From contig JAOTOL010001546.1 in the NCBI GenBank assembly GCA_034440575.1, forward strand, positions 690,501-754,500: a stretch of DNA of 64,000 nucleotides, read 5' to 3'. The position numbers and the translations under genes were made by a program. This document shows, piece by piece, positions 2,818-64,000 of the stretch. Under the pieces are notes generated by a model, which was not told the origin of the DNA, did no database searches, and saw only the letters and a program-made list of their open reading frames with translations. Position 1 is the stretch's first letter, and each line of letters begins with the position of its first letter. The stretch is from Imbricaverruca yamaguchii. Lineage: Eukaryota; Arthropoda; Thecostraca; Neoverrucidae.

Positions 2818-5285
2818 TTACAAGGTTTCTTTGCCTCCCCCGAGAAAAGACCAACTGAAAGCGAGTCGCTGCACGGCCCGCCGGCGGTGGCAGTGGAACC
2901 CACCTCGGTCGGCCGACGCTGGTCCGGTGGGCAGCAGCACGACCGGGCCGGCGGCCAGCTCCAGGTCGAGTCTGTCCGGCGCCGGCCCCATGGACGCGCT
3001 GGCCGCCCGCACGTGCTGCCGCAGCCGCTCCAGCTGCGGCAGCAGCAGCTCGGCCGACGACCGGTCGTCCGACGGCGGCCGCCCAGTCGGAGCGGCGGCC
3101 GGAGCGGCGGCCGGAGCGCCGGCGTCACGCGCCGCAACCATCAGACGGTGCGTGCGCCGACCAGCTGCTGGCGGACTCGGCTGCACGTCGGCTCGGGTGC
3201 CGTCGGCGCCGACGGATATCGCCGCCGTCACCGCACGGTCACGCAGTGGACGGGAGGAGCCGGCTATCGCGCCGCTGCCGCCCGCGTCACCGTCGTTCGA
3301 TGCAGACAACAGAGCTCCACCGTCAACCGTCGCAGCTTGGCTCGAGCGAAAGGACATTGGTTTGCTGTCCGGCTGATGACGGCCCCCAAGATAACCTGGG
3401 CTGAACGCTTTTGCCACATAATCGGTCTGGGATTTTGGAACCTCACCCGTGCTAATTCCTACTGCCATAGGCTCACTTTGAGGTTTGACGGATTTATTGG
3501 AATTTGATCCTCCTTCCATGTCCCCATTCCCACCATGAACAGACTGAGTAATGTCAAACACCTCGGCTACAGAACTGCTTATAACTTTAAGAGGTTGACT
3601 TAAATTCACCCTTCCGGCGATAGGCTTACTCTGGCTGAGGCCTCCTGTCATAGGCTTACTTTGCGGTTTGACCCGTTGGCTTAGATCAAACTCCGCTCTC
3701 ATGGGATCGTCTTGAAGTTTGGCGGTCCTGCTGAATGAAAGTCCACCTGCAATGGACATATTCTGAGGCTTGGCTGGCTGGCTGAGGTCAAAACCTCCTG
3801 TCATGGGATTAGGTTGGGATGCGACTGGTTGACTTAGACTAAATCCTACTGTCATAGAACTATCTTGAGATTCATCTGATTGGCTCAGGTCAAACCCTCC
3901 TATCGCAGGGTGATTCTGGGGTTTGGCTGCCTGGGTTAGGTCAAATCCTCCTGTCTTTGAACTGCTTTGAGGCTTGGTTGGCATGCTCGGGTCAAAACTC
4001 TCTGCCATTGAATTTTGTTTGGGTTTGGCTGGCTGGTTTAGGTCCAATCCTCTTCTCATAGAGCTTTTTTCAAGTTTGGCTGCCTGGCCGAGATGAACCC
4101 CCCTGGTCATCGAATTACTTCGAGGTTCAGATGGCTGACTGAGATCAAACCTTCTTGTGCGCGTAACACCTTGAGGTTTTGCTGGCTGGTTCATATCCAA
4201 TCCTCCTGCCATGGAATTACTTCTGGGTTTAGATGGCTGACTAAGGTCAAACCCTCCTGTGGTAGGATCATCTTCAGGTCTTGCTGGCCGGTTGAGATCA
4301 AACCCTCCTGTCATGGGACCTCCTGTGGGTTTGGATGGCTGGCTAAGGTGAAACCCTCCTGTCGTAGGATTATCTTCAGGTCTAGCTGGCCGACTGAGGT
4401 CAAACCCTCCCGCCATGGGGCCACCTCTGGGTTTGGATGGATGGCTGAAGTCAATCCCTCCTGTCGTGGGACTATCTTCAGGGTTAGCGGGCCGGCTGAG
4501 GTCAAACCCTCCCGTCATGGTACCACCTCTGAGTTTGGATGGCCGGCTGAGGTCAAACCCTCCCGTCATGGTACCACCTCTGAGTTTGGATGGCCGGCTG
4601 AGGTCAAACCCTCCCGTCATGGTACCACCTCTGAGTTTGGATGGCCGGCTGAGGTCAAGCCCTCCTGTCATGGGACCACCTCTGGGTTTGGATGGCTGGC
4701 TAAGGTCAAACCCTCCTGTCATGGGACCACCTCTGGGTTTGGATGGCTGGCTAAGGTCAAGCCCTCCTGTCATGGGACCACCTCTGGGTTTGGATGGCTG
4801 GCTAAGGTCAAACCCTCCCGTCATGGGACCACCTCTGGGTTTGGATGACTGGCTAAGGTCAAACCCTCCCGTCATGGGACCACCTCTGGGTTTGGATGGC
4901 TGGCTAAGGTCAAACCCTCCTGTCATGGGACTACCTGTGGGTTTGGATGGCTGGCTAAGGTCAAACCCTCCTGTCATGGAACCACCTCTGGGTTTGGATG
5001 GCCGGCTGAGGTCGAATCCGCCTGCTGCGGGCTCGCTTTGTGCCTCGGCGGGCCGACTTAAATCAAGCCCGCCGACGACTTGAGTGTCCATGGGTTTGGC
5101 GGGCCATGGCCACTTTGGCTGGGGTGGGCCGGCCAGGTGGCCGGAGCCGGCGGTGTGGGCCGGGCCGGCCGAGTCGGCGCCGGAGCCGCGCGCCACAATC
5201 TGCTGCAGGTGGGCGTGCAGCTCCGGGTACAGCCGCGACAGCTGGGGCTCGGCAGACATCAGCTCCATCAGGGCGGCGACATACT
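2818..5285 (-). CDS. Gene A exon 3: repeat-domain exon with stop codon
   Basis: Terminal exon of an unrecognised membrane protein. The 3' splice site is TTGCTACAG at 5286-5294. The exon enters in phase 1 and reads EYVAALMELMSAEPQL, a predicted helical start. From about 5010 to 3600 it encodes roughly two dozen diverged 20-residue (60-bp) repeats of the form GGFDLSQPSKPRGGPMT; the copies between 4990 and 4500 are nearly identical, the later ones decay. The end, about 3350-2860, is much more GC-rich, Ala/Pro/Arg-rich, with one amphipathic stretch (ELLLPQLERLRQHV). The stop is at 2818. An unseen donor in the GC-rich part could trim the C-terminus, so the last ~170 residues are less certain. Confidence 0.6.
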
Positions 5286-8200
5286 CTGTAGCAACAGCAC
5301 ACGTACATCCGTAGTTCCTAGAACTAGATGCGTGCACACATCAATTGCTCGCAGTCACTTTTGATGCGACGTTCTAAGCCTGCATTTATCACGATGCTGG
5401 TGGGCAAGTAATCTAAACGAGGTTTTCCCTCGGTCCTATTGATTTTACAGTCGTGTTTCAGTTTCCTGGTGTTGGTTGTGATAAATACAACTTGGGTATT
5501 ACTTTATTCGGACAGTACAGCATTACTGTTCGGAGCATTTTTGGTGCATATTCGATATTATCGAAGAGCAGCTATTGCAAGGACAGCTACCGATCATAGC
5601 CAATGGTCACTTCACTGTACATTGTACATCATCACATGTCGACCGACGCTTGGCCCATCAAATCCAACAGCAACGAAGTCGACAACATCAGTGATGGAGG
5701 ACACAGCGTGGGGGAAGACACGCGCTGCCACCTTCAGCCACTTCCCCCACCCACGCGTTAGTGCCGCACTCTCACCGGTCTCGTCACGCGGCCTTCAGCC
5801 ACTTTCCCCACCACGCGTTAGTGTCGCACTCTCACCGGTCTCGTCACGCGGCCTTCAGCCACTTCCCCCGCCACGCGTCAATGTCGCACTCTCACCGGTC
5901 TCGAAACGCGGCCTTTAGCCACTTCCCCCGCCACGCGTCAATGTCGCACTCTCACCGGTCTCGACACGCGGCCTTTAGCCACTTCCCCCACCACGCGTCA
6001 ATGTCGCACTCTCACCGGTCTCGACACGCGGCCTTTAGCCACTTCCCCCGCCACGCGTCAATGTCGCACTCTCACCGGTCTCGACACGCGGCCTTTAGCC
6101 ACTTCCCCCACCACGCGTCAATGTCGCATTCTCACCGGTCTCGACATGCGGCCTTTAGCCACTTCCCCCACCACGCGTCAATGTCGCATTCTCACCGTTT
6201 TCGACACGTGGCCTTTAGCCACTTCCCCCGCCATACGTCAATGTCGCATTCTCACCGGTCTCGACATGCGGCCTTTAGCCACTTCCCCCACCACGCGTGA
6301 ATGTCGCACTCTCACCGGTCTCGACACGCGGCCTTTAGCCACTTCCCCCGCCACTCGTCAATGTCGCATTCTCACCGGTCTCGACACGCGGCCTTTAGCC
6401 ACTTCCCCCACCACGCGTCAATGTCGCATTCTCACCGGTCTCGACATGCGGCCTTTAGCCACTTCCCCCACCACGCGTCAATGTCGCACTCTCACCGGTC
6501 TCGACACGCAGCCTTTAGCCACTTCCCCCGCCACGCGTCAATGTCGTATTCTCACCGGTCTCGACACGCGGCCTTTAGCCACTTCCCCCACCACGCGTCA
6601 ATGTCGCATTCTCACCGTTTTCGACACGTGGCCTTTAGCCACTTCCCCCGCCATACGTCAATGTCGCATTCTCGCCGGTCTCGACATGCGGCCTTTAGCC
6701 ACTTCCCCCACCACGCGTGAATGTCGCACTCTCACCGGTCTCGACACGCGGCCTTTAGCCACTTCCCCCGCCACTCGTCAATGTCGCATTCTCACCGGTC
6801 TCGACACGCGGCCTTTAGCCACTTCCCCCGCCACTCGTCAATGTCGCATTCTCACCGGTCTCGGCGTACGGCGTGTTGCAGTCGATGAGGCCACGTCCGA
6901 TGCAGCGCAGCGTGTAGTTGCTGCAGCTGAGAGTGCCGAACAGCTGACACTGGTAGCCGCCGCCGCGCAGCATCTGCGCCGCCCCTGGCACACAGCACAG
7001 GCCGGCTCATGGCGCACAGCACAGGCCAGCTTATTGAGCACGGCACAGGCCAGCTCGTAGCACACAGCACAGGCCAACTCATGGCACACAGCACAGGACA
7101 GCTCATGGCAAGTCCGGCCGGACGAAGGCTGCACGCCCACTCAAGGTACGCAGCACGTGCACACGTCTGCTCATGCTATGTGGCACCAGAGGAGATTACC
7201 CATGTCTGCTCATGCTGTGCAGCACCAGAGGAAATTATACACGTCCGGTGATGTTGTGCGGCACCAGAGGAAATTACACACGTCCGGTCCGTTGTGCGGT
7301 ACCAGATCAAATTTTACACGTCCGGTCATGTTGTGAGACATCAGAGGAACGTGTGTACGTATTCTCATGTTTGCAGCATCACAGAGAAGCCGCATATTCG
7401 ACCACCGTAGCATACCACCTGCACATAGCCTAAGGTGGGTCACACGCCCACGCCCACTGTGCCGTACTGAGAGAAGCCTTGCTGATGCTGGGCAACATCC
7501 GTGCAATAGCGGCACACGCACATACGACGCCGCTCTAGGCGTGCTGTCAGACAATGTTGGGCCAGCCTGAGTTCGCTCAGGTGCTGCCATGCTCTCGACC
7601 ATGAGATTCGGTATGGTACCAGCGTACTGGTCGGGCGCTCGGTGGGGCACGGAGCCCGTTCTGTAAGTGTGTGAGTGATCATGAGCGGACCGGACTACTT
7701 TAGCGAGACTTGCTGTCCGGGTGTTGGAGAACAACCAGAAGGGCGGAAACTGCCCCCCACCCCATCCCACACTGGATGCTTACTAAATACAGGCAAGCAA
7801 GTGGGTGGCGTACTGCATAACGAAACATCCCGTTCGTATCCGGGCATATGCTAAAAGTATGCTAAATGTGTTGAAGTATCTTGCCCTGCCAAACGGTTTT
7901 CCCACTCAAATGTTGTCCCCTTCTTCCTTGCTCCTTCCAAGGTCCAATAATTATTTACGAGATACTCCGTTAGGCGTCAGACGTAATGCTAATGCGGACA
8001 TCAGGGGGACATCCAGTAAAGAAAGAAAACAGGTAGGTTCATGATGCCATTCAAGAACTCTGAAACAGGCGCCCGCGACAAGCGCGCCCGGATGCTCATT
8101 AGTGTGTGCGCGAAGAATATAGTTACAATTTATGAGACTCCATTTCTATAAAATATGATGCATAGTGTATTTACGAAAGTTAGCTTGCCTTCAGACGTCA

Positions 8201-10317: not shown

Positions 10318-10433
10318 TGGCGGCGCAGCGTGTCCAGCTGCCGGCCGGCAATCTCGTCAACGGCCGTATCGACTGCGTCATCCCGGCCGATGCCATGGTG
10401 ACCAGCAGCTATGGTGACCGCCGCCTGTTGCAG

Positions 10434-12247: not shown

Positions 12248-12249
12248 CC

Positions 12250-13000: not shown

Positions 13001-13110
13001 GAGCTGATGGTACACTGGCCGAGCTGATGGTGTACTGGCCGAGCTGATGGTGTACTGGCTGAGTTGTTGGTGTACTGGCTGAGCTGAGCGTGCACTTGTG
13101 ATCAGTCACC
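13000..13110. repeat. Short 21-23-bp array
   Basis: About five units of GAGCTGATGGTGTACTGGCC. Confidence 0.7.
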
Positions 13111-13602: not shown

Positions 13603-14993
13603 GTCTCACATCCCTAGTCTGCAAGGCACTCGAATCAATTATCAAGGATAGAATAGTTAGTTATCTGGAAGGTAGCAGATTGATTCAAGATACTCAACAT
13701 GGGTTTAGAAAAGGACGATCGTGTCTCACAAACCTCTTGGGACTTTTTGAACTTCGCCACAGAACAATTTGATCAGGGAAATCAGGTTGATGTAGCATAT
13801 CTTGACTTTAGTAAGGCCTTTGACAAGGTACCCCATAAACGGTTAATAATACAGTTTCAGTCCCATGGTATTGCAGGTAGCATCTTAAAATGGATAGAGT
13901 TGTGGCTTCCAGATAGACAGCAAAGAGTGATGCTAAATGGTACAAAGTCATCATGGCAAAATGTTCTTAGTGGAGTCCCCCAGGGGTCAGTACTAGGGCC
14001 ATTACTGTTCATAATATTTGTAAATAACATTGAAAGTGGCCTAAGCAGTAAAGTTTTGAAATTTGCGGATGATTTGAAGGTCTTTAGGGCAATAACAGGT
14101 CAGGATGAGCATATCTCGCTGCAAAAAGACTTAGACGAACTTGTGAAGTGGTCCGAAGAATGGCAAATGAAATTTAACTTTGATAAGTGCAAAATCATGC
14201 ATGTAGGTAAGCAGCATATGAAGGCTCCATACTTGATGGGTGGCCAAGTGCTATCAGTGACTCAACAGGAGAAGGATTTAGGTGTCACTCTAAACACAAA
14301 ACTGGGGGCATCAGAACAGACCAAGGAAGCCAGGACGAAGGCACTGAGAATGCTCGGGGCAATAAATAGGAATGTATCCTACAGAAGTGAGGAAGTGATC
14401 AGGAAGCTTTACTGTGCATACGTCAGGCCACATTTGGAATACTGCATCCAAGCTTGGTATCCTAGCTATGAAAAAGATTGTTGGCTTTTAGAGAGAGTAC
14501 AAAAGAGGGCTACAAAAATGGTTAATGGCATAAGCAACCTGGCATATGAGGAAAGATTGAAGAAATTGAATATGTTTTCACTTAGATATAGAAGGCTGAG
14601 AGGAGATCTCATCGAGGTCTTTAAATTTGTCAATGGTCTGGAGAGAGGATACCTTGGGGAAATGTTTGAATTTAACAGAAATGATGCAATTAGAGGTCAT
14701 AAATTCAAAATTAAAGTTAACCACAGCAGAACAAGGTGAAGGCAAACTTTCTTCACCAACAGGGTAGTGGAACACTGGAACCAGCTGCCAGAAAAGATCG
14801 TCAGTAGCAGCACGTTGAACATCTTGAAAAGCAGCATAGACAATCATTATAAGAATAGAGGGCTTGCTTTTCAGTATTACAGGGAGGGCTGATTGACAGA
14901 TTTGGTGGGCAACTGGTTCAGTATACAGAGTGCAACCAAGAAGGGCCCTTGTGGCTCATAGTTGCACTAATCTTTCATGTCTTTATGTCTTTA
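13603..14993 (+). mobile_element. 5'-truncated CR1-like LINE, copy 1
   Basis: Starts inside the RT (CTCACATCCCTAGTC) and ends in (TTTATGTC)n, the 3' microsatellite shared with the other two copies here. Flanking TGTTGT occurs at 13599-13604 and 14994-14999, a possible short target duplication or microhomology. The insertion sits within a minisatellite. Motifs: [32 protein letters not shown]. Confidence 0.88.
13699..14739 (+). pseudogene. Reverse transcriptase fragment of CR1-like copy 1
   Basis: Open for 346 codons with RT blocks from AFDKVPH to the thumb. Compared with copy 2 it has one extra G near 13738 (frameshift) and a TGA replacing a leucine codon at 14737-14739, followed by the intact tail [15 protein letters not shown] out to 14890. 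No endonuclease domain. It is therefore a defective remnant. Confidence 0.85.
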
Positions 14994-16090: not shown

Positions 16091-16129
16091 GTTCTCCGGC
16101 CGGGATTGCGTCACGATGGGTCAGTGCTA

Positions 16130-16630: not shown

Positions 16631-16639
16631 CTGTGATTA

Positions 16640-17380: not shown

Positions 17381-17390
17381 TATACACTTC

Positions 17391-17880
17391 GGCGAAGGCC
17401 ACCACCGTCGGCGGCTCACCGTAGCCGTCGTCACGTCTGCGTGTACAGACTGGCGGCGAACACGACCGCCCTCCCCCTGCCCCCGCACCACCACCGTCGG
17501 CGGCTCACCGTCGCTGTCGTCACGTCTGGTGAAGGGGGGGGGAACCCTGTCGGCGGCCACCGTCCTGCCGCCACCGTCGCGGACACCGTTGTTGGGTACA
17601 GACTGGCGGCGAACACGACCGCCCTCCCCCTGCCCCCGCACCACCACCGTCGGCGGCTCACCGTCGCTGTCGTCACGTCTGGGTGTACAGACTGGCGGCG
17701 AACACGACCGGCCTCCCCCTGCCCCCGCACCACCACCGTCGGCGGCTCACCGTAGCCGTCGTCACGTCTGGGTGTACAGACTGGCGGCGAACACGACCGC
17801 CCTCCCCCTGCCCCCGCACCACCACCGTCGGCGGCTCACCGTCGCTGTCGTCACGTCTGCGTGTACAGACTGGCGGCGAA
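17391..17880 (-). repeat. 89-bp array carrying the helicase stop codon region
   Basis: Five units with starts of GTGTACAGAC at 17441, ~17594, 17683, 17772 and 17861 (89-bp spacing; one unit interrupted by a 64-bp insertion). On the minus strand each unit contains the codons [11 protein letters not shown] and TGA of the helicase, then ~50 bp of 3' UTR rich in CGGTGGTGGTGCGG. The 17861 copy is the one joined to the real last exon. Confidence 0.9.
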
Positions 17881-18054
17881 CACGATGTCGCGCTTGATGG
17901 CCGTGCTCGCCTGGTTGGCCTTCTCGTAGAGGGTGGGGTTGCCGACGGTTCGAGCGGCGGTCCGCACGTCGCGCAGCGTCTCGTCCAGCCGCTGGATGCA
18001 CCGCACGATGATGCCCTCTTGCACATCAGTCAGCTGCATGATGGAGTTGAACGT
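17851..18054 (-). CDS. SKIV2L: Ski2 helicase exon (last): DSHCT end and stop
   Basis: 68 codons including TGA. Reads [20 protein letters not shown] and ends [15 protein letters not shown], the hallmark C-terminus of Ski2/Mtr4-family DSHCT domains. Acceptor CCGCAG at 18055-18060 is preceded by a poor pyrimidine tract, but phase 0 joins it exactly to WARGV of the previous exon. Confidence 0.93.
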   Translation of the reverse strand, partial: TFNSIMQLTDVQEGIIVRCIQRLDETLRDVRTAARTVGNPTLYEKANQASTAIKRDIVFAASLYTQT

Positions 18055-22104: not shown

Positions 22105-22176
<72 letters not shown>

Positions 22177-25100
22177 TAGAGTGGTCCTTAAAATCAAAAG
22201 TTTGAATTATGTTGCTCCTACCCCGGGAATCTGTTCATATACATGCAAAAACCGCGTAGGTATTTTTTTCTTCAAAATCGGCTCGTGTGAAGATGTTGCA
22301 CATCGAAGTTGATTTTTTACTCTACCCCAGTGTTTTACCACAGTGCCATATGACGTTGAAATTTTTACTTTACCACAGTAAGTACACCAGTGTACTTAGG
22401 CAATATGGGTATTGCATTAACCTCGCCCCTCTCTTCTTTTTCTCAGATTATTATGGCTACACGTAGCAAAGATTTCCTTGTTGTGCCCGAGCCAGAGCTG
22501 GTGGGGTCCAAACTTCCATCCAACGGCGATGTCTTAGCCGTTATTCTGCACAACTTACATTTGAAGAAGACGTCGCTCCGTGATGTGACGCTTGTCGTTG
22601 CTCCCATGGTGGCGCGATACTGGAGCATGGCTCGGATTCCCATGATGAGGAAGGACAACGTGGTGACGAAAATGGAGAAGCTGCATCGGGAGTACGAGCT
22701 CCTGAAGAAGGGGAAGCATCGACGCTTGGTGCCGCAGGTGGCCAAGGAGGAGGCGTTCATGGTCGTCTTGGAGAATCTCTTCGACGTGGCCCACGCAGAC
22801 GCCTTGAAGACGATGACGAATGCGGATGATAAGGCGTTTCTGCTTGCCCAACGCGAACCAGGCCGATGGGGGGGGATGGGGAATATGGATACTGTCCTTG
22901 CTGGACAAGAAGCTCGACGATGTCAGAGAACGGAGAGAGAGCTGGAGCAACAGAGGCGCGCGCAAGAAGAGGCAACGTCTTCGTCCGCAGTGGTTGAGCT
23001 GGAGTCCTCCACCAGTTCCAGCCCATCTGATCCAGAGTCGTCTGCTGAAGCTGCCGAAGTCCGTGATGCTGTTGGCGGAGCGAGTCCGCGGAAACGGATC
23101 CGGAGAGCCACCACCAACATGATCAGTCCAGCTCTTGCGGCAACGTTGGACAGGACGAAGATGACAGATCGATCGGCCGTTCACGTCCTGACTGCGACTG
23201 CTAGTGTTCTCGGACGCGATGTCAAGGAGCTAAACATCAACCGCTCTTCCATCCGCCGTCATCGGAGAAAGCACCGGGAAGCACTGGCCTCCAAGCTCAA
23301 GGAAGAGTTCCGAGCGGACACTCCGCTTGTTATCCATTGGGATGGCAAGCTGATGCCTGACCTAACCACCAAAGACCATGTGGACAGGCTTCCCATTCTT
23401 GTTACAGGGAAGGGAACATCTCAGCTACTGAGTGTTGCCAAACTTGCCAGCGGGACGGGACACGACATCGCTCGCGCCGTGGTGTCCGCTCTGGAGGAAT
23501 GGAGAGTTGCAGATCAGGTGGTCGGACTGTCGTTCGACACCACGGCTGCGAACACTGGCAGGAACAATGGCGCTTGTGTGCTCATTGAACAACAGCTCGA
23601 GAAGGGCATGCTTCACTTTGCCTGCCGACACCATATCCTGGAAGTCATGGTTCAAGCCGTCTTCACCCATCTCCTCGGAGCCTCCTCTTCCCCCGATGTC
23701 CTCCTCTTCAAACGCTTCCAGACCTACTGGAAGAACATTGACCGCGAAGCCTTCACCACAGGGATGCAGAGTGCAGAGGTAGCCACTCTTCTGCAGGACA
23801 TGAAGGACGAAGGCCTGGGCTTGGCAATGCAAGTCCTTCAGGATCGCAGTGACTTGCGTGATGATTACAAGGAGCTGGTCGAGCTTGTCATCATCTTCCT
23901 TGGCGGGGTTCCTGCTCGCGGCGTCCGGTTTCGAGCTCCTGGACCAATGCATCAGGCACGTTGGATGAGTAAGATCATCTATTCGTTCAAGGTATGGATG
24001 TTTCGCGATCAATTCTCCCTCAAGAAGAGAGAAGAGAACGCACTGATGAAGATGTGCGTCTTCTCTGCGAGAGTGTACGCAATGGCGTGGATGAAGGCAG
24101 GGTTCCCCGCTCAAGCTCCTCGGCTCGATCTGGACCTACTGAAGGCTCTGGACACGTACGGAAAGATTGACGCCGAGGTGGGGAACGTTGCCTTGAAGAA
24201 ACTCTCCAACCACCTCTGGTACCTGTCGGAGGAGCTGGATGGGCTCGCCTTTTTCGACCCTGAAGTCTCCGTTGACAGGAAGAAGGCGATGGCGATGACT
24301 ACAAGGCAAGAGAGCGGTGAGAGGGAGGAGTCAGCTCCGAAGAGGGTCATGTTGCCGAAGAAATCTATCCGCAGTGTCCATCTTGAAGATTTCGTCACGG
24401 ATCGAACGCTCGGCTTCTTCGAGAAGCTCAACCTGGACAAGTCGTTCCTGGACTTCCCCCCGGAGACGTGTGAGGAACGGGAGCCGTTCAAGGCGGCGGC
24501 AGCAGTGTCCATCTTGAAGATTTCGTCACGGATCGAACGCTCGGCTTCTTCGAGAAGCTCAACCTGGACAAGTCGTTCCTGGACTTCCCCCCGGAGACGT
24601 GGGAGGAACGGGAGCCGTTCAAGGCGGCGGCAGCAGTGGTCCACAAGCTGGCGGTGGTCAACGACCATGCGGAACGTGGAGTGGCCCTCATCAATGAATA
24701 CAACCGGTCACTGACCAAGGATGAGGAGCAGCTTCAGTTCCTCCTCCAGGTAGTGGCGGCCCACCGGAAGCAGTTTCCGGACACAAAAAAGACGACACTT
24801 GCCCAGACCAGGCAACAATGAGTGGTTTGGCCCCCACGATAGTATTATCCCCCAGTCTTTGAGCGGATAATACTCCTGAGCAGTGTGTACACTCCTGCGG
24901 GAGGGAGACCTGGAGCCAGATATTGGGTATATTTACGAGGTCGATGTGCAACATGTTATTACGATCGGATTTGAACAAAACTTTCTTCACACGTTTTTTG
25001 CTCCCAAAGGAACAATTCCCAGGGGTAGGAAGAAGTACTTTCCTGTGTTTATTTGTTCCCTATATACTAAGAACCACCCTAATATATATATTCCTATGTA

Positions 25101-29480: not shown

Positions 29481-29523
<43 letters not shown>

Positions 29524-32500
29524 TTTTCACGATACATGCCCTTCACGTGCAGTGGCTTTATGGACAGACCGTGCAATGATTATGCACAGAACTTAGTTTT
29601 CCATTGACGCTCCTTACAATGATCCGGAAGTTTAAAATTACGCGTAATATATTTCGGGCACAGCCCTTGGTCACATGCATTCAGACAATTGACATTGCCT
29701 TACCTACAACAAGGACTGAACGATCTAAGTTGATAAGGAACGATTATGTCAGTGAAAGGGAAACAGTACACCTGCACATACGACAATTCAGAGCTTCTCT
29801 AAGGTCTGCAAAATGGCTGAAAACTAGCATGTGGCCACGGCACTAAGTGTCTGAAGAATCTTCAGGATCCAAACAAGCTTCGTTGCTTAACCCAGAACGG
29901 TTATTCAGGCATGTCTAGAGGACAAGGTCATAGAGCATGAATAGTGTGATAACTAAGCAGAACAAGGACTCATCTAACATTTGCATTCCATGCATATCAC
30001 CTTCTGATATACCGATCTATTCGCCCCTCGCATCCATCCAAATTTGGATGGTACCTCCCGCGCCAACTACCTGTATGATGATGCCTGGTCGCCGAGCGAG
30101 CACATCGGTGGAGAAAATGATCACTTGTCCCACACTATCCAGCGCCTTGACCCCGGCGTTGGAGGCATACAGCCGCTCCTGGGGAACGGACCAGTCAGCT
30201 CAGCCAGTTTGTGAGCGAATGACACTTGTAGACGGTCATCTGGAAGTTCCAACAACGCTGCCTACACCGGTCTGACCGGCTACATTTAGGACTTCAGCCA
30301 GGTTGTGTTCGCGCTTACTGCCTCCAAAATCGCATATCCCCATGTACCTGGAGGCAATAATTATCGTCCCATCATAACTTCGCCTGACGACTCCGAGGAC
30401 AACAGCGGACGCCAATATTTTGCAATGCATGACAACACAGAAAATCTGCCGAGGTATGAAGCGCCATGCGACAGCTGCGTGAGAAACGCGCTGCAGAAAC
30501 GCGGCGTCGCAACCCGACATACGCTAACTTGCAATGTCGGGTGCGCTTGAGTTGTCATATCGTGGTGTGTCAAGTGGTCACGTGACCTAACCCGCCTGTC
30601 GACGACAGAGACGTCGGAGTCGTGGTGGTTATCGGCTTTACGACACATCAACCGTTGAGCCATGTAGCGAGCCATGTAGCAACTTACCCCTTGACTACTC
30701 GTTCCGACGTCGGAGTTGCGAGTTCGGAAACAATCGCTGCGTCCTCGACAGCGTCCTCCGACAGCGTCCTCGGCGACACACACCGCCAGGGGAGCCCGAC
30801 AAGCACTGCTTCGGCGGCGAGACGTCTCCAAGCCATCCTTAATTTTAATCTTATCTATTGAGACCTTCGCTGTCGTAGGAAAACACCCGACATAATACTG
30901 TCTCCTTCGCCCAATGACTCCAAAAACGTTCCAACGTCGCTGCCAGCAGCCCCGGGACACATCGCTAGGATACTGTCGCGCAGCCAGGGACCTTACTCGG
31001 GTGTTGTGGAACGGGACGCCTCATCCGGATACTGTTGCGCGGCAGGCCACGCTACCCGGATACTATCTCGTAGCGGGTCGCTACATCCGAATACTGTTGC
31101 GCGGCAGGCCACGCTACCCGGATACCGTCTCGCAGCGGATCGCGCTTCTTTCAGGCACTGTCGCGCAGCGGGCCAACTAGCCCAGCCACTGTCGCGCAGT
31201 GGACTCACCCGGACACTGTCGCGCAGTGGACTCACCCAGCCACTGTCGCGCAGTGGACTCACCTGGACACTTTCGCGCAGTGGACTCACCCGGACACTGT
31301 CGCGCAGTGGACTCACCCGGACACTGTCGCGCATCTCCAGGTAGTCGCGACACGTCGTGTAGAACTGATTGATGTCGGCGCACGACTTGTCTATCACGGG
31401 CCGCTGTTCATCGGCAGACACCCTGAGACTGAGGAACGCAGAGACAACGCCTCACCAATCCGTCCGCCCGTCAGCCATTGCTAACAACATCACTCAGATT
31501 AATTACACCATCTTTAGCTGGATGTACATAAAAAATGTTAAGTACTCACACGTGCACTTTACATATTTCGTGCACCAGGTTTTCATTTACAGAGCAAACA
31601 CGTGCACTAATTAAAATCCAACTTCCGTACCTCGCAGACACATCTGGATCATGATGAAAATTATTGAAACGGGTTCCGAGATTCTCAGGATAAAAAAAAA
31701 TCGCAGATGTCAAATAATCGTACAAGTGTTACAACAAATGTCCACGTGAGTTGCACTGGCTCCACTGCAGCGCAAATGTTCCAGTACATAGCCAAATAAT
31801 CATGATCGTTCAATACACTGACCTCTGCCGAACTTAACCTTTACGACCTGCCAAGTTTGTTGATCGACAACGAAAAACTACCTGCTTAATGTCGGGGCTT
31901 TCCAGCTTTAGTCTACTATACCGGTCTGAGCGCATGTTGAGCACCGCATCAGCTAACGAGCCGATTTGTGTCGCCACACTGTTACTATGGCGACTGCGAC
32001 AACTGACGACGGTAATCCTCGCCCACGTGCTCACGCACGATCTAGGTGGCTTGGTGCTATCATACAAACACTGTTGAAGGTGGTGGTGGGCGAACGCTGG
32101 TGACCCAGACGCAGATGGAGGTCGCACTAGGCGAAAACGGCTCGGATGTACCTTCCAAGGTGCTTACATAGGCTCACGGATCTAAAAAGAGCAGCCACTA
32201 GCGGAACACCGGAGTCTGGTGCTCGGATGAGAAGGCAAGTTAATTGGCAGATTCTACCAGAGGAGATGGGCTGACCAAGGCCGTCCGTACACCAGATTAC
32301 AGGTTTCAACAGGCGGAAACAGAGGATCGTCACGAAAATAACGACAGCGTTCCCAGGTTAACCAGGGAAGCGTCAACATAGCCTTGGGCACACATACAAC
32401 ACGTGACAACCTAAATGTTAATGACAGGAGAGCTGCAGTGAGACAGACATTGGGAGTCTGACAAAGGATTGCCGATTGTAGGGAAAAGAGTCTGGCAGTC

Positions 32501-44500: not shown

Positions 44501-47500
44501 GCATCCGAAAAGAAAACCTGTTTTTTTTGTTCTCTTCTTAATGCTGGTCAACAATGCCAAGTAGCCCCAATACCTCTCAAACATCGTTGTTTTAATGTGA
44601 CACGGGCATGACTCATGCACGCGCTAGAAGAAATCGGTAGGCAACATTTCGAGGTAGGTGCGTTTTCCGAACAACGCATCCAGGTTTCAGCGAACCAACG
44701 TATTCAACACTAAAGCTATTTATCGTATGCTGGTACAAATCAGTGACAATCACACACCGCTGTAGGGTAAATAATCCACATAAATGGCCGCACTATATCG
44801 GCGGGGAGGGTGAGTCGGTCTCCACACATATTTTAGGTTTGGAAGCCAGAGGCGCAGCAATTCTCTTCAATGTGTGAACAATTCTAAAAGGTACTTGCAA
44901 TCACAAACTTCACAATTTTGTTTGGTTCCAGTCATTTAGAGAACTCGACCTCATTTCATGGGATTTTAGTATAGTTGTCATACGCGCAAAACTTCCATGC
45001 TGTATTTATTCTTCTTCACGTAAGTACTTCGAAACCTCATACTAAAACGATTACTGAAAGGCTTGTCTCATCTGCTTACTAGGAACTAGGCACATGTGAG
45101 CAGATCATATGTCATTGTGATGGATACAAAGCTCAGCTCCATTGTGCATGATAGTGATTTTGAAACCAACTAACTATTCTTCGCCGGTGCATGTCTCAGT
45201 CCTTGTGCGCTACTAAGTTCATGAGTGGCTTAGGTGCGGATTACGACGTCAAGGGGAGAACATATATGGAGTCTGCCAGGTGGATGAGTACGTTCCTTCG
45301 TTTATATATAAACCATGTAGGTGAGACATAAGTAAATCAATGTAAGCTGGGGGACGGATGCTTCCATAAAACACATGCAATTTAAAAGCCATCAAAAGAT
45401 GTTTCATGCCCGGGTTTTCAAAACCACGCATCGTCGAAAAAAGCAGAAGTCCGAGCAGCTTCTACATTATTCGCCAACTATTCCTAGGCTTGCACATGAG
45501 TAAAACAGGGTGGATGCTGCTTGTTAGGCAAGAAATCCCATAACGAAGCGAACGATTCCCAGGTCATACCCAGAGGGGAAACGAGGGTCAAATGCTGAAA
45601 ATGTTGTTCGTTTGACCCCGTTTAACTGAGCAAGCATTCGACTACGATAAGGAATATACTACCGATTACGAACCCACGTATTCGCCACCTACCTTAAAAC
45701 AACGCGGGAAATCTTATTGGTTCTATGGATGGCAGGACGAAGGTTCGATTATGTGGGGATGCAGGGAACCTATTCCATTGATCAACCATCCTTTGGCTGA
45801 AAACCTGTCAGCGCTGAACTTTGATTTGTCCAACCTGAAATGATGACCCCTATGTGATGCTCTGAATGGAAGAGGATCATTCCGATTGATATGGTCTAAC
45901 CGTGTAACTATTTCATACATTCCAATCACATCACGCCTTAATCTCCCATACTTCAATGTGTGCATACATAAAGCCATAAGGACATAAAAGATTAGTGCAA
46001 CTATGAGCCACAAGGGCCCTTCTTGGTTACACTCTGTACACTCAACCAGTTGCCACCAAATCTGTCAATCAGCCCTCCCTGTAATACTGAAAAGCCAGCC
46101 CTCTATTCTTATAATGATTGTCTATGCTGTTTTTAAAGATGTTCAATGTGCTGCTACTGACAATGGTTTCTGGCACTGGTTCCAGTGTTGTACTACCCTG
46201 TTGGTGAAGAAAGTCTGTCTTAACCTTGTTCTGCTGTGGTTAACTTTAATTTTGAATTTATGACCTCTACTTGCATCATTTCTGTTCAATTCAAGCATTT
46301 CCCCAAGATATCCCCTCTCCAGCCCAAGGACAAATTTAAAGACCTCGATGAGATCTCCTCTCAGCCTTCTATATCTAAGTGAAAACATTCAATTTCTTCA
46401 ATCTTCCCTCATATGCCAGGTTGCTTATACCATTAACCATTTGTGTAGCCATCTTTTGTACTCTCTCTAAAAGCCAACAATCTTTTTCATAGCTAGGAGA
46501 CCAAGCTTGGATGCAGTATTCCTAATGTGGCCTGACATATGCACAGTAAAGCTTCCTGATGACTTCCTCACTTCTGTATGATACATTCCTATTGATTGAC
46601 CCAAGCATTCGCAGTGCCTTCTTCCTGGCTTCCTTGGTCTGTTCTGATGCCCCCAATTTTGTGTTTAGAATAACACCTAAATCCTTCTCCTGTTGAGTCA
46701 CTTTGCCACCTATCAAGTATGGAGCCTTCATATGCTGCTTACCTACATGCACGATTTTGTACTTATCAAAATTAAATTAAATTTGCCATTTTTCGGATCA
46801 CTTCACAAGTTCGTCTGAGTCTATTTGCAACTAGATATGCTCATTTTTATCTGTTATCGCCTTAAAGACCTTCAAATCATCCGCAAAGTTCAAAACTTTA
46901 CTGTTTATGCTACTTTCTATGTTATTTACAAATATAATTGTACAGAACAGTAGTGACCCCAGTACTGACCACTGGGAGACTCCACTAAGAACATTTTGCC
47001 ATTATAACTTCGTACCATTTAGCATCACTCTTTGCTGTCTACCTGAAAGCCACAACTCTATCCATTTTAAGATGCTACCTGCAATACCATGGGCCTGAAG
47101 CTGTATCATTAACCGCTTATGGGGTACCTTGTCAAAGGCCTTACTAAAGTCAACATATGCTACATCAACCTGATTTCCCTAATCAAATTGTTCTGTGGTG
47201 AAGTTAAAAAGTCCAAGAGATTTGTGAGACACGATCGTCCGTTTCTAAACCCATGTTGAGTATCTTGAATCAATTTGTTTCCTTCCAGATAACTATTCTA
47301 CTCTTGATAATTGATTCGAGTACCTTGCAGATTAGGGATGTGAGACTTACTGGCCTATAGTTTTCAACTTTCCCTCTTTCTCCTTTCTTGAAAATAGGAA
47401 CTACATTTGCCCTTTTCCAATCTGTTGGAATTTCATTTTGTGAACCTGATCTACAAAATATTATACTAAGTGGAAATGCCAGTTCCTTTTCAGCTCCCCG

Positions 47501-50500
47501 CAATACCCTAGCATAAATTTCATCAGGTCCTGCTGCCTTGCTTGGCTTTATTTTCCTGATATTTTCCCATACCTAATGACATAGATCAAAGAACATGCGT
47601 ACCTGCATTAAAGGGAACAAAAGGCAGACACCTTTCCTCTCTATCGCTTTTCCTTTGAGAGCATAAAGGAACACCATAGCAACACTGATCCACTGTTTTA
47701 ATCATTCCCGCTGAATTATTGACACCGCCACTGACCAAGCATCATGGTGTGTAGCTCCGAGCTTTCTGGCACCTCCTGCTTGCAGAGAATGATGACCGTT
47801 CCCGTCGGATCCAGGCCGCGTCGGCCCGCCCGACCTGCCATCTGGATGTACTCCCCTGAAACAAGACAAGCACCTGACATCAACGGTGTGTGCCTTGAAA
47901 CAACGGCAAAGGTCCCATGCACACTTGCGCTCGTCCCGATTTGATTCAATGTCGGGTCAGTTTTGCATTGACCCTTTGTCCGTCGGGAAGTAGAGGGAGG
48001 GGAAAGGGTGTGCGAATGCCCAAGTGTTTCCATAGACGCAGTAGCCAACATGCGGTAGCCAACGTGACATAAATTTGTGCATCCCTCCTGATCTGGGTCA
48101 AATCCTTAAAGCGTTTAATGCATAACGCAGTCAGCTTACTTCAACTTATACACAGGTCAAAGCACAAATCTGAAAATATGGTAAGAAATCTATATTTCCC
48201 TGGCATGTGCTCCTTGAGGCTCAGGCATCATACAACCAATGCGGGAATCTATCACAGTGTATCAATCATAATCATAGTGTTTCATGTCTAATAACACTAT
48301 GCCATCAGACTAGCTGATGCATGAAGTAAGCGCCAAGCACGACACGCTGATGTGCTATTATACGTGGAAGTCACCAAAAGCAGTGAGTCTGTAGAACTGC
48401 AGCAAAAGTTAAGGAAACAAAGCCAGTGGAAACCAATGGAATCCTGCCCAATATCCGCTGAGATCCCACTGTCCGCGCTTAGCAGAGGAGAACCAAAGTA
48501 TAAAAACCTATCTGGGGAATACACAATAGATGCAACTCCCTTATTGTTGGCCACATGACTCAGACATCCATCTTCTCGAAACTGAAATAGACCAACGGTT
48601 TTCGTAATAACAGTTATTTGCGCCCTATGCAAATGATGAAGGACTTTAAGAAAATAGTACGAAGTCGAAGCCGAAAAGCCCGCGGGTTCAAAATGTCACA
48701 ACGGTGAAGCCAACTCTGAAAAAGCCGCGAAGCCGAAACCAAACACAAAATACGTGGCTTCGAGAAGAAGAAACTGTTGAATTGTGACGAAATGAAGGTC
48801 AGGCAATCCTTTTAATCATGTAAAGCCAAAACTAAATCAAATATTTCATGAACTGAGAAACCATGGTGACATTTAGAGTGAGTTAAAAAAATTGATGAAT
48901 GTCTTGTTCATTCGTTTTGTGCAATTATTATCAGAAAACTTGACGTGAGTTGGTGAAGCACATTGTGAATTGCGGGACCGTCCAGCAGCCATAAGATCCT
49001 CCAAGAAACATTGAGGCAATGGGAAATGGGTGTTGACCGAGGAAGGGGAATGGTCTGGCCTGGGGTGGGTGCACAGTTACAATTTTATAAAGGATCCTAG
49101 TAGGGGAATGGACATGTTATATGTCTGGATAAACCGTATTTTTGTAAAGTTTTGTTAGTTATTTTTAACTTTAAACATGATAGTGGCATTCATTATCTTT
49201 TTAAAAAGCCCTTAAATAGTTCACAAATCACTTCAGAATGCCTCGCTTTGATTGGTCAAAATACCTGTGACGTTACGCATGTCGTGGGCCGTGGGTAGCG
49301 AACGTCGACTGCCGGGCATCCGATTTTACGTATAGGATACCGCCGAGTTTGGATTAATTGTGACTGTTTTAGCTTAAGTGACATCCCACCGTGCGATGAT
49401 AATGGATTGCAGAAAACGCCGCTATTATACTTGTTTTTTGCCAAAGTGCAAAAATACAACTTTTAGCAAGCCAGACACGATATTCATCGGCCTTCCGAGT
49501 TCAGACGAGATGAGGACGCTGCAGAGCGATGTTGCGCGTCGAGATGGTCCTCTGATCACCGCATACCCAAGTATGATTGATCACACAAGCCTACACCTGC
49601 GGAGAGCGTCATCTCTTCCTACACCTATTGATAATTGATTGAATTAACTACTACACCAGCACAATTTACATCTTCCAAGAAATGCCTTTAAAATTCCACA
49701 ACATGCCTGACATTCCATATACCAATAGACTGAACTTGAATACCTGTACCACATTTAAAAGCCACGGGTTATGGCCAATGCATACGTTTAATTTGTCATT
49801 TGACAGCTTTCCCTTCTCGTAATACCTCCATTTACATCAGCAAAACATGCCAGCATTTGCATGAGGCATCATACTCAATATGTCCCATCACAATGATGAT
49901 TAGAGATCTTGACGTCTGCCAAAATATCATCAATGTATGCATACATTTCACCCACATCCCTATGCAGGGAAAGAGGGGAGGGGTTCCGAGCACCTAAGAC
50001 ATGCAGCAAATAGCTATACTGCTGCTTCTGTACGGCCGAACCAGTAATTGTACTGCTTACTGCACACAAAAATGAACAAACAATCCATATTCAAACAGTT
50101 CTTTTGAACAAAAGTCCTCAAAAGGTTTGCAAAGAGGAACTTTAAAACAATTATTATCTTGCAGTGGTGTGTCATATCATGAACATGAAAATGTCGTGCA
50201 GGTGTGCTTCACTGTAGTTGCTGTAGTGCAAGTTATTAGTAGCCACTAAAAAACACCAATGTAATTGAAAAATAAAATATTAGAGGTAGCTTTTGTATAG
50301 CTTTCCTGAGCTAACTGCTCCTGGAAGCCTAAAAATGGTACCGGTAGACTTCAATAGCTCGGTACACAAATAATTGGTAGGACTATGCAATCAAACCTTT
50401 ATATTCCGGTAGAGACAGGGCCACCTTATATGAATATTTCCATATTAAAAAAAAAAAATATTTATGCACTAAACATGACATGGGGGACGTCCAACTGTAG

Positions 50501-56500: not shown

Positions 56501-59500
56501 CTTGATGGTGCCGATCCAGTCGGCGAACTGCAGCGTGTTGGGTACGGTGGCCGAGAGCAGCACGATGCCGACAGTGTCCGGCAGCAGGATCAGCGACTCC
56601 TCCCACACCACCCCGCGCTGAAACAGACGGAACGCCGCTGACACAAACGGCACACCGCTGACACAGACGGAACACCGGTGACACAGACGGAACACCGCTG
56701 ACACAGACAGAACACCGCTGAAACAGTCGACATACTGATATAATTATTGATTGATTATTTGGGCTTTGGGGCGCATCAACGGCTACTGGTTATGTAGCGC
56801 CCATATCTGAGCTGATATAATTACACATCCGAAACAATGCTATAGCGAACATCAACAACCAACATGACAGGATCAACAATTAGCATACGGCATGATTTGT
56901 TGTCCATAAATCATGCTATTCTAAGCCGGATATCTGCACACGAAGTATAATATCGGATATTAGTAGGGATTCAGTTAGCTATTAAGGTGTACGGCCCAAG
57001 TGCTGATTTGGTACCATGAACCCCAATGGTTCACATGGTTCACCCCAATAGAGCAGCGAACCTGTGAAACGGGTATCGGGCATCTCAGTTCCGACGTTCA
57101 GCGGCTGAATTCGGCCGCGTTTTCAAGTGCCGTCAATAAATCGACACGCCATCCACACCAGCGTTTTCACCAGTGTGCGAGTACGTCAATATATATTTGT
57201 CAGTATCCCAGCTCATCAGTGTGCGGGTACGTCAGTTCATCTTTGTCAGTGTATCAGTTCACCAGTGCGCCGGTGCATCAATACATCTTTGTCAGTACAT
57301 TATTTCATGAGTGCCAGCTGGTGGGACGAAAAACATCGCTTGGAAATCAGGGCAGTCGCGTATACACTGGGTCGCAGTTTGCAGAAACTAATGTGCGCAT
57401 ACTTTGACATGTATGCGCGTACTTTGACATACTAACAACATTCCAATGCTGTTGGTTTGCACGGACCTTCAATACAACCTACAGTCAGCTCTTCTTTCGT
57501 AATGGTTATTGGCTTTACGACACATCAACTGTTGACCCATGGAGCGTCGCCAATTTCGCACGCCGATTAGTCGCGGGCGAAGAGTAGCAACAGGCGAGAC
57601 TCGAGCCAACAACCTCTCGATTGAGGGACGGGCAACATACCCCTAGACTATTCGTCCCTGCCAGCTGTTCTTTCGACTACCGCGGATATTACATGATGCA
57701 ACCGAGGTGAGCTGCAGCCAAGGTATCATTTCGACTTATACAAAGCGTATGTGAAATCAATCGGGCATGTTCAGCGATTAAATATCACAATCCTGCATGT
57801 CCAAGCCGTGCGCCGAAATTGTTTCAGGAAAATCGTAACTACTACAGGTGGGAACGCTTATCTTCCCACACCAAACGTCAGCCCAGTGCTCCGCAATCTG
57901 TTACGAGCGATCATAAGGATGTCTGCACACACAATGCATTTATACCCACACACAATGACAATCACGACACAAACCAAGCGAGTCCCACCTCCGGATCGTT
58001 GATGTAGTGCACTTCGTCAAAGATGACCCATTCAAGGTCGCGGATGAGATCACTGCCGTTGTACAACATAGAGCGAAGGATCTCGGTAGTGCAGATGAGG
58101 CAGGACGCCTCCTTGTTGATCTGAATGTCGCCCGTCAGCAGGCCCACGTCGGTGAACGTGTTCTTGAAGTCCCGGAACTTCTGATTGGACAGCGCCTTGA
58201 TCGGCGACGTGTAGACAGCCCTGGGGACGCGGTTGGCCGGTTGGTTAGTCGGTTGGTGGATTAACGGGCTGGTGGTTTGTGACTGAAGGGCGTGTCGACT
58301 ACCATGGTTAGTATGCGTCCATTTCGGCTGGCTTGGTTGTTGGTTGGTAAATGGTTGACACAGATAGGTTGACGGTTGACAGATAGCTTCGTTTTTGATT
58401 GGTAGATAGGTTGGTTGTTGGTTGATAGGTAGGCTGATTTGTTCGTGCTGCTCTCGTCCGGTGGCTGGAGTGTTACGTTGTAAATTCTCAGTTGGTTGTG
58501 GGACGAACATTTTTATCGTCAGCTGAGATACAAAGGAGCAGCGAGTATCCATCCCTAAACGGAGAATATTACCCTTGGTTTCATGTTGGCATATCCATCC
58601 ATCCTTACTGATTGAGGAAACATTAGTCCAATGGTGATCGGGTCAAAACGTAACAGTCCGTACTGGCGGATCTCTTGGCACGAACTTTAGATAATTGGTC
58701 ATTACAAAAGGTAACAAATAAGGGCGTAAGACAGTCCCAGCAAAATGCAGTTACATCGACAGTTAACCTTTCCTCAGCGCTTCAACCATTTAACACTCCA
58801 GTTAATTTTCTTCGTGCTGTTGGGAGATTGCAATATGCACTGTACATTCCAGCCGATGCATTCATTGCACTCCAAAAACCCTCAAGCTTTGACTGCCTTT
58901 CACCTCACCAACATATTCAGTAAGTGTAATTATTCAAACACTTGTGTCGCCGTGGCACAATGCCAGCACCATTCCAGCACACAATAGCGTCACTTATGTT
59001 AGACAACGTCACGGCAAGGAGCCGTGTCCGTCGCCTGCAGTGGCTGGGATGATGACCCACCGCACCGCCACCCGCCGCATACTTAGTTCCGTGTCGCTGC
59101 GACAGGGCGATGGCGTACTCTGCCACGGCCGTCTTGCCGGCCGACGTGTGTGCTGCCACGAACACGCTCTCGCCCTTCTCCAGCGACAGCACGGCCTGCA
59201 GCGGAACGGTCCAAGGTCAGGTCACGAACACACAACTGTCATTCTCCAGCGACAGCACGGCCTGCAGCGGAACGGCCCAAGGTCAGGTCACGAACACACA
59301 ACTGTGCTCCAGCGACAGCACGGCCTATGGCGGAACGGGTCAGGGTCAGGTTACGAACATACAACTGTCATTCTCCAGCGACAGCACGGGCAATGGCAGA
59401 ACGGGTCAAGGTCAGGTCGTGTCAGGTGCGTGGAACGGCGACACACTGACACACCATTCATAAATAATGACTAGGCATAAGGTGGACTCGCAATACAGTC

Positions 59501-62500
59501 AGCTTCGATATCGCAGTTATTGGTAGTAAATCAGCGAGGATGCGCTTACAGCAGGCCATGGCTGACAAAACCAGGATGCACGCCAGGATAAACTGAACAT
59601 AGCAAAGCCACTTCATTGGTCATCAGCCATGATTGTGCATACCTCAGTGGCATAAACTGTACTATAAAAACGTTAGAAGGAAAGCAATGTTCGCATTGCA
59701 TATTTTAGCAACAATATTTCAGAGTCGACACACTGAGACAGCCGTGGGATGTGCATCGAAAAAAATGACACGGCTATGGCAGTGTTAAATTACTCGTGAA
59801 ATAGGGTGAAATATACCACTTATTGAACACTCGATCGACATCCTTCTCCAAGAAGTATCCACATCCTGCTCCTTGATGCATGCTCATGAATCTTCATGTC
59901 TTCTTTCTAACAGTATCTCGCTTATCAGTGCCATCTCTATGCTCTCGATAAGGTATGGTAATACCCGAATGTTTCGCAAGTCAATTTCAGGAAAAGGGAT
60001 TGTCTATAATGTGATATGGCATATACTGTCAGTTTATAGCATAGTATTATTATCCCAATCCGAATGTAGCTCTTCATAAATTACGAATCTCAAAACAAAT
60101 AGCAAAGGTGCAGTCATAAGTAGCTACACCATTGGCTCAAATATGAATCTGAAAGACTTCATATTTGAGCCAATGGTGCAATTTAATTGGTTTCATATTT
60201 GAGCCATTTAATTGACATTTTAAATGACGCCAATTCCATGGCCAATTTCGACATCCTATTGTCTTCGTTTCAACATCTCACACCTAACGAAAACCAATTA
60301 TTTTAACCCTGCTATGGGATTTACATAGAAATAATGACACGACAGTGGAATGTGCATCGAAATGACACGGCTATGATATATACATCGAAATAATGACATG
60401 GCTATGGGATATATATAGAAATAACAACACGGCTATGGAACATCGTTACAACAATGGTTTTTTGTTAGGTGTGAGATGTCGAAACAAGTACAAGATGTGG
60501 AATTTCACTAGAAAAATACTGTCATGTAAGAACTTTGTCACGTCATCATAGCTTAATTTTGAGTCAATATGGTACTAATGGCCGTACATTTTTCGCTTGT
60601 TTTGAGGCATCTAAAGTATACATACATATATCAACGATAACGATACAAAATACCTATGCTATAAACGGGCATTGTACAGCAGAGCACATGAAAGGTAATC
60701 CCTCCACCTATAATTGCACTACGAGACGTTCGTGCATCACGACAGGTTGTGGTGAGCATAAAAATGATACTTATATACGAGATGATGCTAGACACGAAGC
60801 ATGAAGACTTCCCATGCACGTATCAAGAAGCACTATGTCGATGATTCTTCGAGATGGATCTCGATTCAATGCTCAAAAAGTTGTATATTCCACCAAATTT
60901 CACGAATAATTTATCACTGCTATCGAATGTGCGTCGAAATAATGACGCGGCTACGGGATATACATCGAAATAATGTCACGGCTGCGGAATGTGCATCGAA
61001 ATAATGACACGGCTACGGAAATTCGTTAAAAAACACTACGATCGGCTGCAGCCGAACGCAGTCGCATCTCGGGACTACCGAGGGGCCCGCATCGACCGAC
61101 ACCACTTCGCCTCACTAGCTTCTGGAACGTGTCCAGCTGGTAGGGGAAGCTGTGCGCCATGTTGGGCACCAGCCGGTGGAAGTCGTCGACCGGCCGGCTG
61201 ATGTCCAGCTCCTCGGCCCAGCGGGTGGAGCGGAGCCGACGACCGGGTCTGCCGGCGTCAGCGGCACTGTCCGTCGTCAGCACCGGCACACACACCGGCT
61301 CCGGCTGCGAATGAATACCGCAACGGCTCACACATACCGCTAATATAGGCCCACACCGGCTCCCGCTGCGAAGGAATGCCACAACGGCTCACACACACCG
61401 CTAATGCAGGCCCACACCGGCTCCCGCTGCGAATGAATACCGTAACGGCTCACACACACCGCTAATGTAAGACAACGCCAGCTCTAGCTGCCGGGGAACG
61501 CCGTAATAGTCTCACATACACATCCTTAATGTAAGCCCACACCGGCTCTGGCTGCCGGGGAACGCAGTAACGGACTCACACACACCGCAGCTGTAGGCTC
61601 AGTCAGTTGGTTATTTGAGCTTTAGAGCGCATCGATCACGTTGATCATATAGCAACTGTAGGCTCACACACACCGCAACTGTAGGCCACCGACTCCGGCT
61701 GCCGGAGAACTCACAACATCGGGGATCAACATGGCTGAATGACGACAAACAAGGTCCGAAGACCCCTGCTGCAAGTCAGACGGACACTTGTCGCAGGTCA
61801 GGACAGACCCCCCTCTCGGCTCTAGAACTGATTTCGACTGTTCAAGGTCAGGACGGCTCCAGTTCCATCCAGTCCCACACGGCAGCTGGCGCCACCGACG
61901 ACCGGCCTTCAGCCTCTGGTCTAACCGCCGCCGCCACCACCACACCACGCAGCCGCCACCACACCACGCAGCCGCCACCACACCATGCAGCCGCCACCAC
62001 ACCATAGAGCCGCCACCACACAACACAGCCACCACCACACAACACAGCCACCACCACACCATGCAGCCGCCACCACACCATGCAGCCGCCACCACACCAT
62101 GGAGCCACCACCACACCACGCAGTCGCCACCACACCACGCAGCCGCCACCACACCATGCAGCCGCCACCACACCATGGAGCCGCCACCACACAACACAGC
62201 CACCACCACACAACACAGCCACCACCACACCACGCAGCCGCCACCACACCATGCAGCCGCCACCACGCCATGCAGCCGCCACCACACAACACAGCCACCA
62301 CCACACCACGCAGCCGCCACCACACCACGCAGCCGCCACCACACCATGCAGCCGCCATCACACACCACAGGCGCCACCACATCACGCATCCACCACCACA
62401 TAACACAGCCACCACACAACACAGCCACCACCACACAACACAGCCACCACCACGCCATGCAGCCGCCACCACACAACACAGCCACCACCACACCACGCAG

Positions 62501-64000: not shown

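Follow-up and report, generated by a model that had tools for sequence, protein, structure and literature searches.

The original paper on the repeats called mirages is reportedly that of Canestro in 2002. In the amphioxus Adh3 gene, mirages are tandem repeats that span the boundaries between exons and introns; they recur in amphioxus globin genes, at 5' and 3' boundaries, and their units measure 10-72 bp in Adh3 and 150-160 bp in the globins (PMC3087553, available sections). According to the same sections, mirages seem not to disturb regular splicing, judging by the data on Adh3 and the globins, and a path from them to new introns has been proposed (PMC3087553). Additional amphioxus mirages have been described in the troponin C and PGBD5 genes (PMC3902484, available sections). 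Tandem duplication also copied existing splice signals in a potato RdRp gene, but there a new intron arises inside an exon, whereas the copies described below sit in introns already present, with no sign of a new one (PMC4974935, available sections).

TRF output for the window, which is the whole 64,000-bp stretch of barnacle DNA analyzed here, has 69 rows; merging yields 43 arrays with a period of at least 7, spanning 12,678 of the 64,000 bp. Six of these arrays contain an exon boundary, five in the gene for the RNA helicase SKI2W and one at an inferred exon of a second gene, gene A. They resemble the amphioxus mirages (Adh3, BflGb6, BflGb9, troponin C and PGBD5) in being head-to-tail repeats of varied unit that span the boundary, and in that many copies, not all, keep the AG or GT (PMC3087553 and PMC3902484, available sections of both). 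Units span the boundary at four helicase splice junctions (3 acceptors, 1 donor) and at the gene A donor, with 5' and 3' boundaries both involved; the splice-junction units measure 20 to 66 bp, AG being retained in 5/5, 3/4 and 4/5 copies and GT in 5/5 and 18/19. Unlike the amphioxus cases, the arrays have a barnacle host, occupy five boundaries in one gene, and include one array at a stop region. Splicing and length instability have been studied for amphioxus mirages, whereas the barnacle arrays are known from the sequence of one assembly. An earlier note on this DNA was aware of no named process for such repeats, but "mirages" is the established term in amphioxus (PMC3087553 and PMC3902484, available sections). 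What is new here is the barnacle as taxon and the presence of several cases in one gene. No report of junction repeats in barnacles or other arthropods was recognizable from the titles and abstract beginnings of the matches listed, in a search that most subscription journals lay outside, and the main text of the Pollicipes genome paper (PMC8917513) makes no mention of "tandem" or "minisatellite".

The helicase gene, gene A and their arrays

The minus strand of the window encodes SKI2W, the Ski2-type helicase of the superkiller complex. Our model has 18 exons, 18 AG acceptors, 17 GT donors and an open reading frame of 983 codons, stop counted in; the exons are numbered 2 to 19 after the count of the earlier note, which began at the first exon seen. 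The protein has the DEAD helicase core and the DSHCT domain, matched by Pfam in separate exon frames, and is similar over its full length to known members of the family: human SKI2W (7qdr_A) aligns with model residues 26-981 at E 2.8e-298. Among the best 120 of 7988 proteins scored, the top relative is that of Pollicipes pollicipes (77% identity over 100% of the query), followed by two isoforms from Amphibalanus amphitrite (74-75%), and the remaining 117 show at most 55% identity. These identities point to a barnacle other than either of those two species. The Pollicipes and Amphibalanus proteins identify 18/18 exons by tblastn, with one spurious weak match in the same search (52849-52751, E 0.004). 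At E 0.01, tblastn finds nothing in the window for residues 1-192 of the Pollicipes protein, so the first SKI2W exons are probably located beyond its ends. The exons that border arrays, and the arrays themselves, are as follows; signal counts refer to the copies listed per array, and exonic bases are taken from array coordinates.

61116..61304, minus strand: SKI2W exon 2, the first seen (exon model, tblastn)
61291..61588, minus strand: 61-bp array with the exon 2 acceptor (61304); TRF; AG in 5/5 copies; 14 exonic bases
59083..59195, minus strand: SKI2W exon 3 (exon model, tblastn)
59176..59418, minus strand: 63-66-bp array with the exon 3 acceptor (59195); TRF; AG in 3/4 copies; 20 exonic bases
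56501..56617, minus strand: SKI2W exon 5 (exon model, tblastn)
56616..56726, minus strand: 20-bp array ending on the exon 5 acceptor (56617); TRF; AG in 4/5 copies; 2 exonic bases
31317..31422, minus strand: SKI2W exon 12 (exon model, tblastn)
31187..31333, minus strand: 27-bp array with the exon 12 donor (31317); TRF; GTGAGT in 5/5 copies inside; 17 exonic bases
17851..18054, minus strand: SKI2W exon 19, the last (DSHCT domain, exon model, tblastn)
17596..17885, minus strand: 89-bp array with the coding end and stop of exon 19 (17851); TRF; TGA in 3/3 copies; 35 exonic bases

The five helicase cases named by the earlier note (acceptors of exons 2, 3 and 5, donor of exon 12, stop of exon 19) are thus borne out, each boundary lying inside a TRF array. 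Exon 5 is the weakest of the five. Similarity to the Amphibalanus protein P0002 starts at the exon 2 acceptor, and a sixth, degenerate copy just outside the exon 12 array carries GT. Together the exonic bases of the five arrays (14, 20, 2, 17 and 35) amount to 88 of 2949 coding bases. Interrupted copies coding for VFAASLY extend past the TRF limit of the 89-mer array (17434-17595, minus strand), and a 21-mer array at 27326-27649 stops 62 bp from exon 16. Lowering the TRF threshold, which yields 49 arrays, places no additional helicase junction inside an array. A search with 25-mers centered on the junctions detected a near copy (0.8 identity or more) at 3/35 helicase junctions, those of exons 2, 3 and 12, which is about the rate of 0.088 at random intronic points; it misses exon 5, where the array has only 2 exonic bases.

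The sixth array lies at a donor in gene A.

6856..6984, minus strand: inferred gene A exon 2 (GT-AG, open, SKI2W-like codon usage)
5731..6863, minus strand: 60-bp array of about 19 copies with the gene A exon 2 donor (6856); TRF; GT in 18/19 copies; 8 exonic bases
6986..7110, minus strand: 24-bp array adjoining the gene A exon 2 acceptor, with the acceptor outside; AG in 1/5 copies

The seven junction arrays originally proposed are therefore reduced to six. The seventh, said to contain the gene A exon 2 acceptor, only adjoins it: the exon start lies 2 bp beyond the 24-mer array, and only the real copy has AG, the other four being without it. Unit lengths do differ between arrays, as claimed, but the lengths of 21 and 30 bp listed among them do not occur at junctions, where TRF gives 20 and 24.

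No stop interrupts the frame when gene A exon 2 is joined to the inferred exon that begins at 5285. The codon-usage score of exon 2 is 0.51; of 2293 random open GC-matched stretches, among which some may overlap the exon itself, a fraction of 0.001 score as high. Six of the 18 helicase exons, compared without being held out from the training set, score 0.09-0.67. Protein searches with 221 and 7991 candidates gave no gene A homolog at E 0.001 or better, nothing passed the Pfam cut-off, and a single PDB match (E 0.62) is of no weight. An 840-residue open frame at 2818-5340 on the minus strand consists largely of a 51-bp repeat and stays open, the unit length being divisible by three. We rejected the reading in which an 840-residue coding exon of gene A runs from 2818, since SKI2W-like codon usage is confined to the first 185 bases of the inferred exon 3 (0.43). 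This exon as a whole scores -0.37 and its last 1180 bases -0.30, the latter no different from the average for random open GC-matched 126-mers (-0.30). The frame is nevertheless the best of six, 2.8 SD over shuffles of its own composition, and there may be some coding signal beyond the first 185 bases. With the long frame poorly supported as coding, the donor at 2904 is doubtful.

Origin of the repeat units

Alignments to human and barnacle SKI2W indicate that the exonic portions of the units come from coding sequence that other animals share. The exon 3 unit encodes AVLSLE, and the 89-mer repeats the conserved C-terminal end of SKI2W, which is common to both barnacles; human SKI2W ends ...FAASLYTQ. 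Judged from these alignments, the repeat sequence was evidently in the gene first and was copied afterwards, not brought in by a mobile repeat. A single dispersed mobile repeat was also rejected because the units differ in length and sequence, each matching its own exon, and on this point the earlier note was right.

Each of the six arrays leaves one complete exon in place and reaches from its edge into the intron or past the stop. We consider it probable that the arrays stem from random tandem duplications straddling an exon boundary, combined with selection for an intact protein; that is, from minisatellites arising in the ordinary way in a gene that is GC-rich and prone to repeats. Slippage, template switching or unequal exchange would have produced a head-to-tail duplicate of 20-89 bp. 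A duplication inside an exon would alter the protein and would usually be lost. One straddling a single boundary would keep a complete exon and a working splice site at the array edge, and could persist because of that intact exon, its surplus copies landing in the intron or past the stop, where they would be tolerated. A tolerated array could later grow to about 3-19 copies. GC-rich exon flanks, resembling the repeat units in this respect, may raise the duplication rate there: GC content is 0.65 in exons, 0.62 in the 50-bp exon flanks and 0.49 in the region. Near copies, here 25-mers repeated at 0.8 identity or more within 700 bp, are rarer within exons (0.014 of 504 exon-interior positions vs 0.088 of 3550 intronic ones). 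Duplication, protein selection and GC give much of the pattern, where we infer the duplication mechanism, its neutrality and the use of the splice site at the exon edge.

The junction arrays are in several respects like ordinary intronic minisatellites, represented by 36 other arrays in the window, with overlapping ranges of unit length, copy number and GC (6 vs 36). They differ in that the unit includes the exon boundary, in unit length (median 60 vs 26 bp, Mann-Whitney P 0.056, 6 vs 36 arrays), and in a somewhat higher copy identity (median 91 vs 84%); mean unit GC is 0.63, against 0.58 in the other 36. Longer units make it likelier, from length alone, that a boundary is spanned. Structure-prone units were rejected as a cause. 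In this small comparison (6 vs 36) neither folding z-scores nor minimum free energy per base differed between junction and other arrays (Mann-Whitney P 0.48 and 0.21), and slippage at structures, one of the causes originally suggested, is accordingly unsupported here.

Junction overlap and chance

Overlap was evaluated at the 35 splice junctions of the helicase, at the 39 splice junctions of the window (including the doubtful donor at 2904, which lies in no array), and at 40 window sites when the stop is added. Under the first null model whole arrays were rotated or placed independently. Under the second, one repeat unit was placed, uniformly or with GC matching; this null was chosen because every array goes back to a single duplicated unit, and because one that covered a whole exon would escape observation.

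No clear excess emerges when whole arrays are placed. At the 40 window sites 6 arrays overlap, where rotation predicts 5.2 (P 0.42) and independent placement 4.8 (P 0.33). The corresponding values are 5 against 5.1 and 4.7 without the stop (P 0.62, 0.53), 7 against 5.3 and 4.9 with a 3-bp tolerance (P 0.26, 0.19), and 6 against 7.9 and 7.3 when counted by junction. For the helicase, 4 arrays overlap splice junctions against 2.7 and 2.6 (P 0.29, 0.25), 5 against 2.8 and 2.7 with the stop (P 0.11), and 5 against 2.5 and 2.4 if, with the stop, only arrays longer than about 60 bp are used (P 0.07).

Unit placement gives a different result. The helicase splice junctions show 4 overlaps where 0.75 are expected (P 0.0055), or 1.08-1.57 with GC matching (P 0.018-0.057); with the stop there are 5 against 0.77 (P 0.0005), or 1.11-1.62 GC-matched (P 0.003-0.013). 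Across the window the counts are 5/39 splice sites against 1.01 (P 0.0025; GC-matched 1.49, P 0.013) and, with the stop, 6/40 against 1.03 (P 0.0004; GC-matched 1.53, P 0.0025). Requiring at least 10 exonic bases in the unit leaves 3 helicase cases against 0.57 uniform (P 0.017) and 1.05 GC-matched (P 0.077), or 4 with the stop against 0.58 (P 0.002) and 1.09 (P 0.016), respectively; requiring at least 7 exonic bases leaves 4 in the window against 0.84 (P 0.009; GC-matched 1.25, P 0.031). When transposon stretches, set by hand, were masked and arrays were collapsed, the helicase gave 4 against 0.84 uniform (P 0.009) and 1.54 GC-matched (P 0.052), and, in both cases GC-matched, 5 against 1.58 with the stop (P 0.012) and 3 against 1.18 with at least 10 exonic bases (P 0.096).

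The verdict on a junction excess thus depends on whether a whole array or a single unit is placed. The proposition that chance overlap is unlikely stands for uniform unit placement at helicase splice sites (P 0.0055), becomes borderline there with GC matching (P 0.018-0.057) and does not clearly hold for whole-array placement in the window (P 0.33-0.42); the supporting argument, that exons are only about 5% of the locus, overstates the case. In our view the fairest null places single units with matched GC, and under it the helicase retains an excess of about 2.5- to 4.5-fold, which for one locus, tested after the pattern had been noticed, is borderline to moderate.

This excess, together with the upward lean under whole-array placement once arrays below about 60 bp are dropped, speaks against random duplication with protein selection as the whole account, and leaves room for a real junction preference. 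Arrays might be seeded at boundaries beyond neutral duplication, with co-transcriptional splicing, R-loops, pausing or chromatin provoking breaks or template switching. Such seeding would fit the unit-placement results at the helicase junctions and across the window, with and without the stop, and also the proximity of arrays to exons: rotation predicts 7.1 arrays within 200 bp of a helicase exon, where 12/25 are seen (P 0.032), and 5.3 within 100 bp, where there are 9 (P 0.061). However, arrays within 50 bp of an exon (6 vs 4.3, P 0.25) or overlapping one (5 vs 3.4, P 0.24) are not in excess, the helicase ratio falls from 5.3 to 2.5-3.7 with GC matching, the GC-matched tests on units with at least 10 exonic bases are weak, whole-array rotation gives no clear excess, and junction units fold like the others. 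With a single locus and a post hoc test, we regard boundary seeding as unlikely. Its extension, that exon boundaries are preferred birthplaces of arrays in minisatellite-rich genomes such as those of amphioxus and barnacles, beyond the effects of GC and selection, is slightly more doubtful still; if true, it would imply a steady supply of duplicated splice sites, such as the five in-frame donors of exon 12, from which new introns and length-variable isoforms could arise. Should such arrays be common in barnacles and amphioxus, they would be a general by-product of the way minisatellites arise and would supply duplicated splice signals again and again, bearing on intron gain and on the annotation of gene models. 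The choice between whole array and single unit decides how surprising the overlap is, and genome-wide studies must settle it first.

Duplicated splice sites and other elements of the window

The copy number of tandem arrays is often mis-assembled, and the numbers in this assembly may be wrong. One aberrantly assembled amphioxus mirage has indeed been reported (PMC3087553, available sections). That the arrays themselves are artefacts of assembly or of haplotype merging is nonetheless very unlikely: their copies have diverged and unit lengths vary between arrays, which simple joins of one read error would not produce.

The protein predicted from the splice sites at the exon edges matches both barnacle relatives at its C-terminus and where exons 2-3, 4-5 and 12-13 meet, and needs no insertion at any of these points. 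This agreement of the exon-edge model with orthologous proteins is an indirect sign that normal splicing may be retained. It also counts against the idea, raised in the earlier note, that extra splice sites are selected for and yield alternative isoforms. The upstream acceptors of exon 2 (2 of 4 copies tested) and exon 5 (3/3 AG copies) cause frameshifts, and 4/5 of these reach a stop within the stretch read; both upstream AG copies of exon 3 are in frame, adding 66 or 129 nt, but carry a stop; and two inner donors of gene A, tested out of 17 with GT, both bring a stop. Such selection is therefore unlikely at exons 2, 3 and 5 and at gene A exon 2. Only exon 12 differs. Its five identical GTGAGT donors, 27 bp apart, share one open frame, and the four inner, downstream donors would add 9, 18, 27 or 36 residues, in blocks of nine, in frame and with no stop. 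As a general explanation of the arrays, selection for extra splice sites is highly improbable.

Where identical 5' splice sites compete, the intron-proximal one may be preferred, which makes the exon 12 donors the most testable point. The exon 12 array offers a test, in a natural gene, of donor choice among several identical, equally spaced donors.

The window includes several other elements. A reverse transcriptase element of non-LTR type is present in three copies, at 33795-35843 (minus strand), 46072-47572 (minus strand) and 13684-14739 (plus strand); the copy at 33795-35843 matches RVT_1, and the other two look alike by eye. A 784-residue open frame at 22360-24714 (plus strand), which has no Pfam match and carries a tandem duplication of 131 bp close to its end, may belong to a transposon. 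In the region 61929-63872 a 19-mer is repeated about 103 times, with a very strong asymmetry between the strands, and 62001-64000 has a GC skew of -0.59 and an AT skew of +0.76. At 2028-2433, an array of a 20-bp repeat is rich in palindromic CACATGTG and CACACGTG-like motifs, as judged by eye from the TRF consensus.
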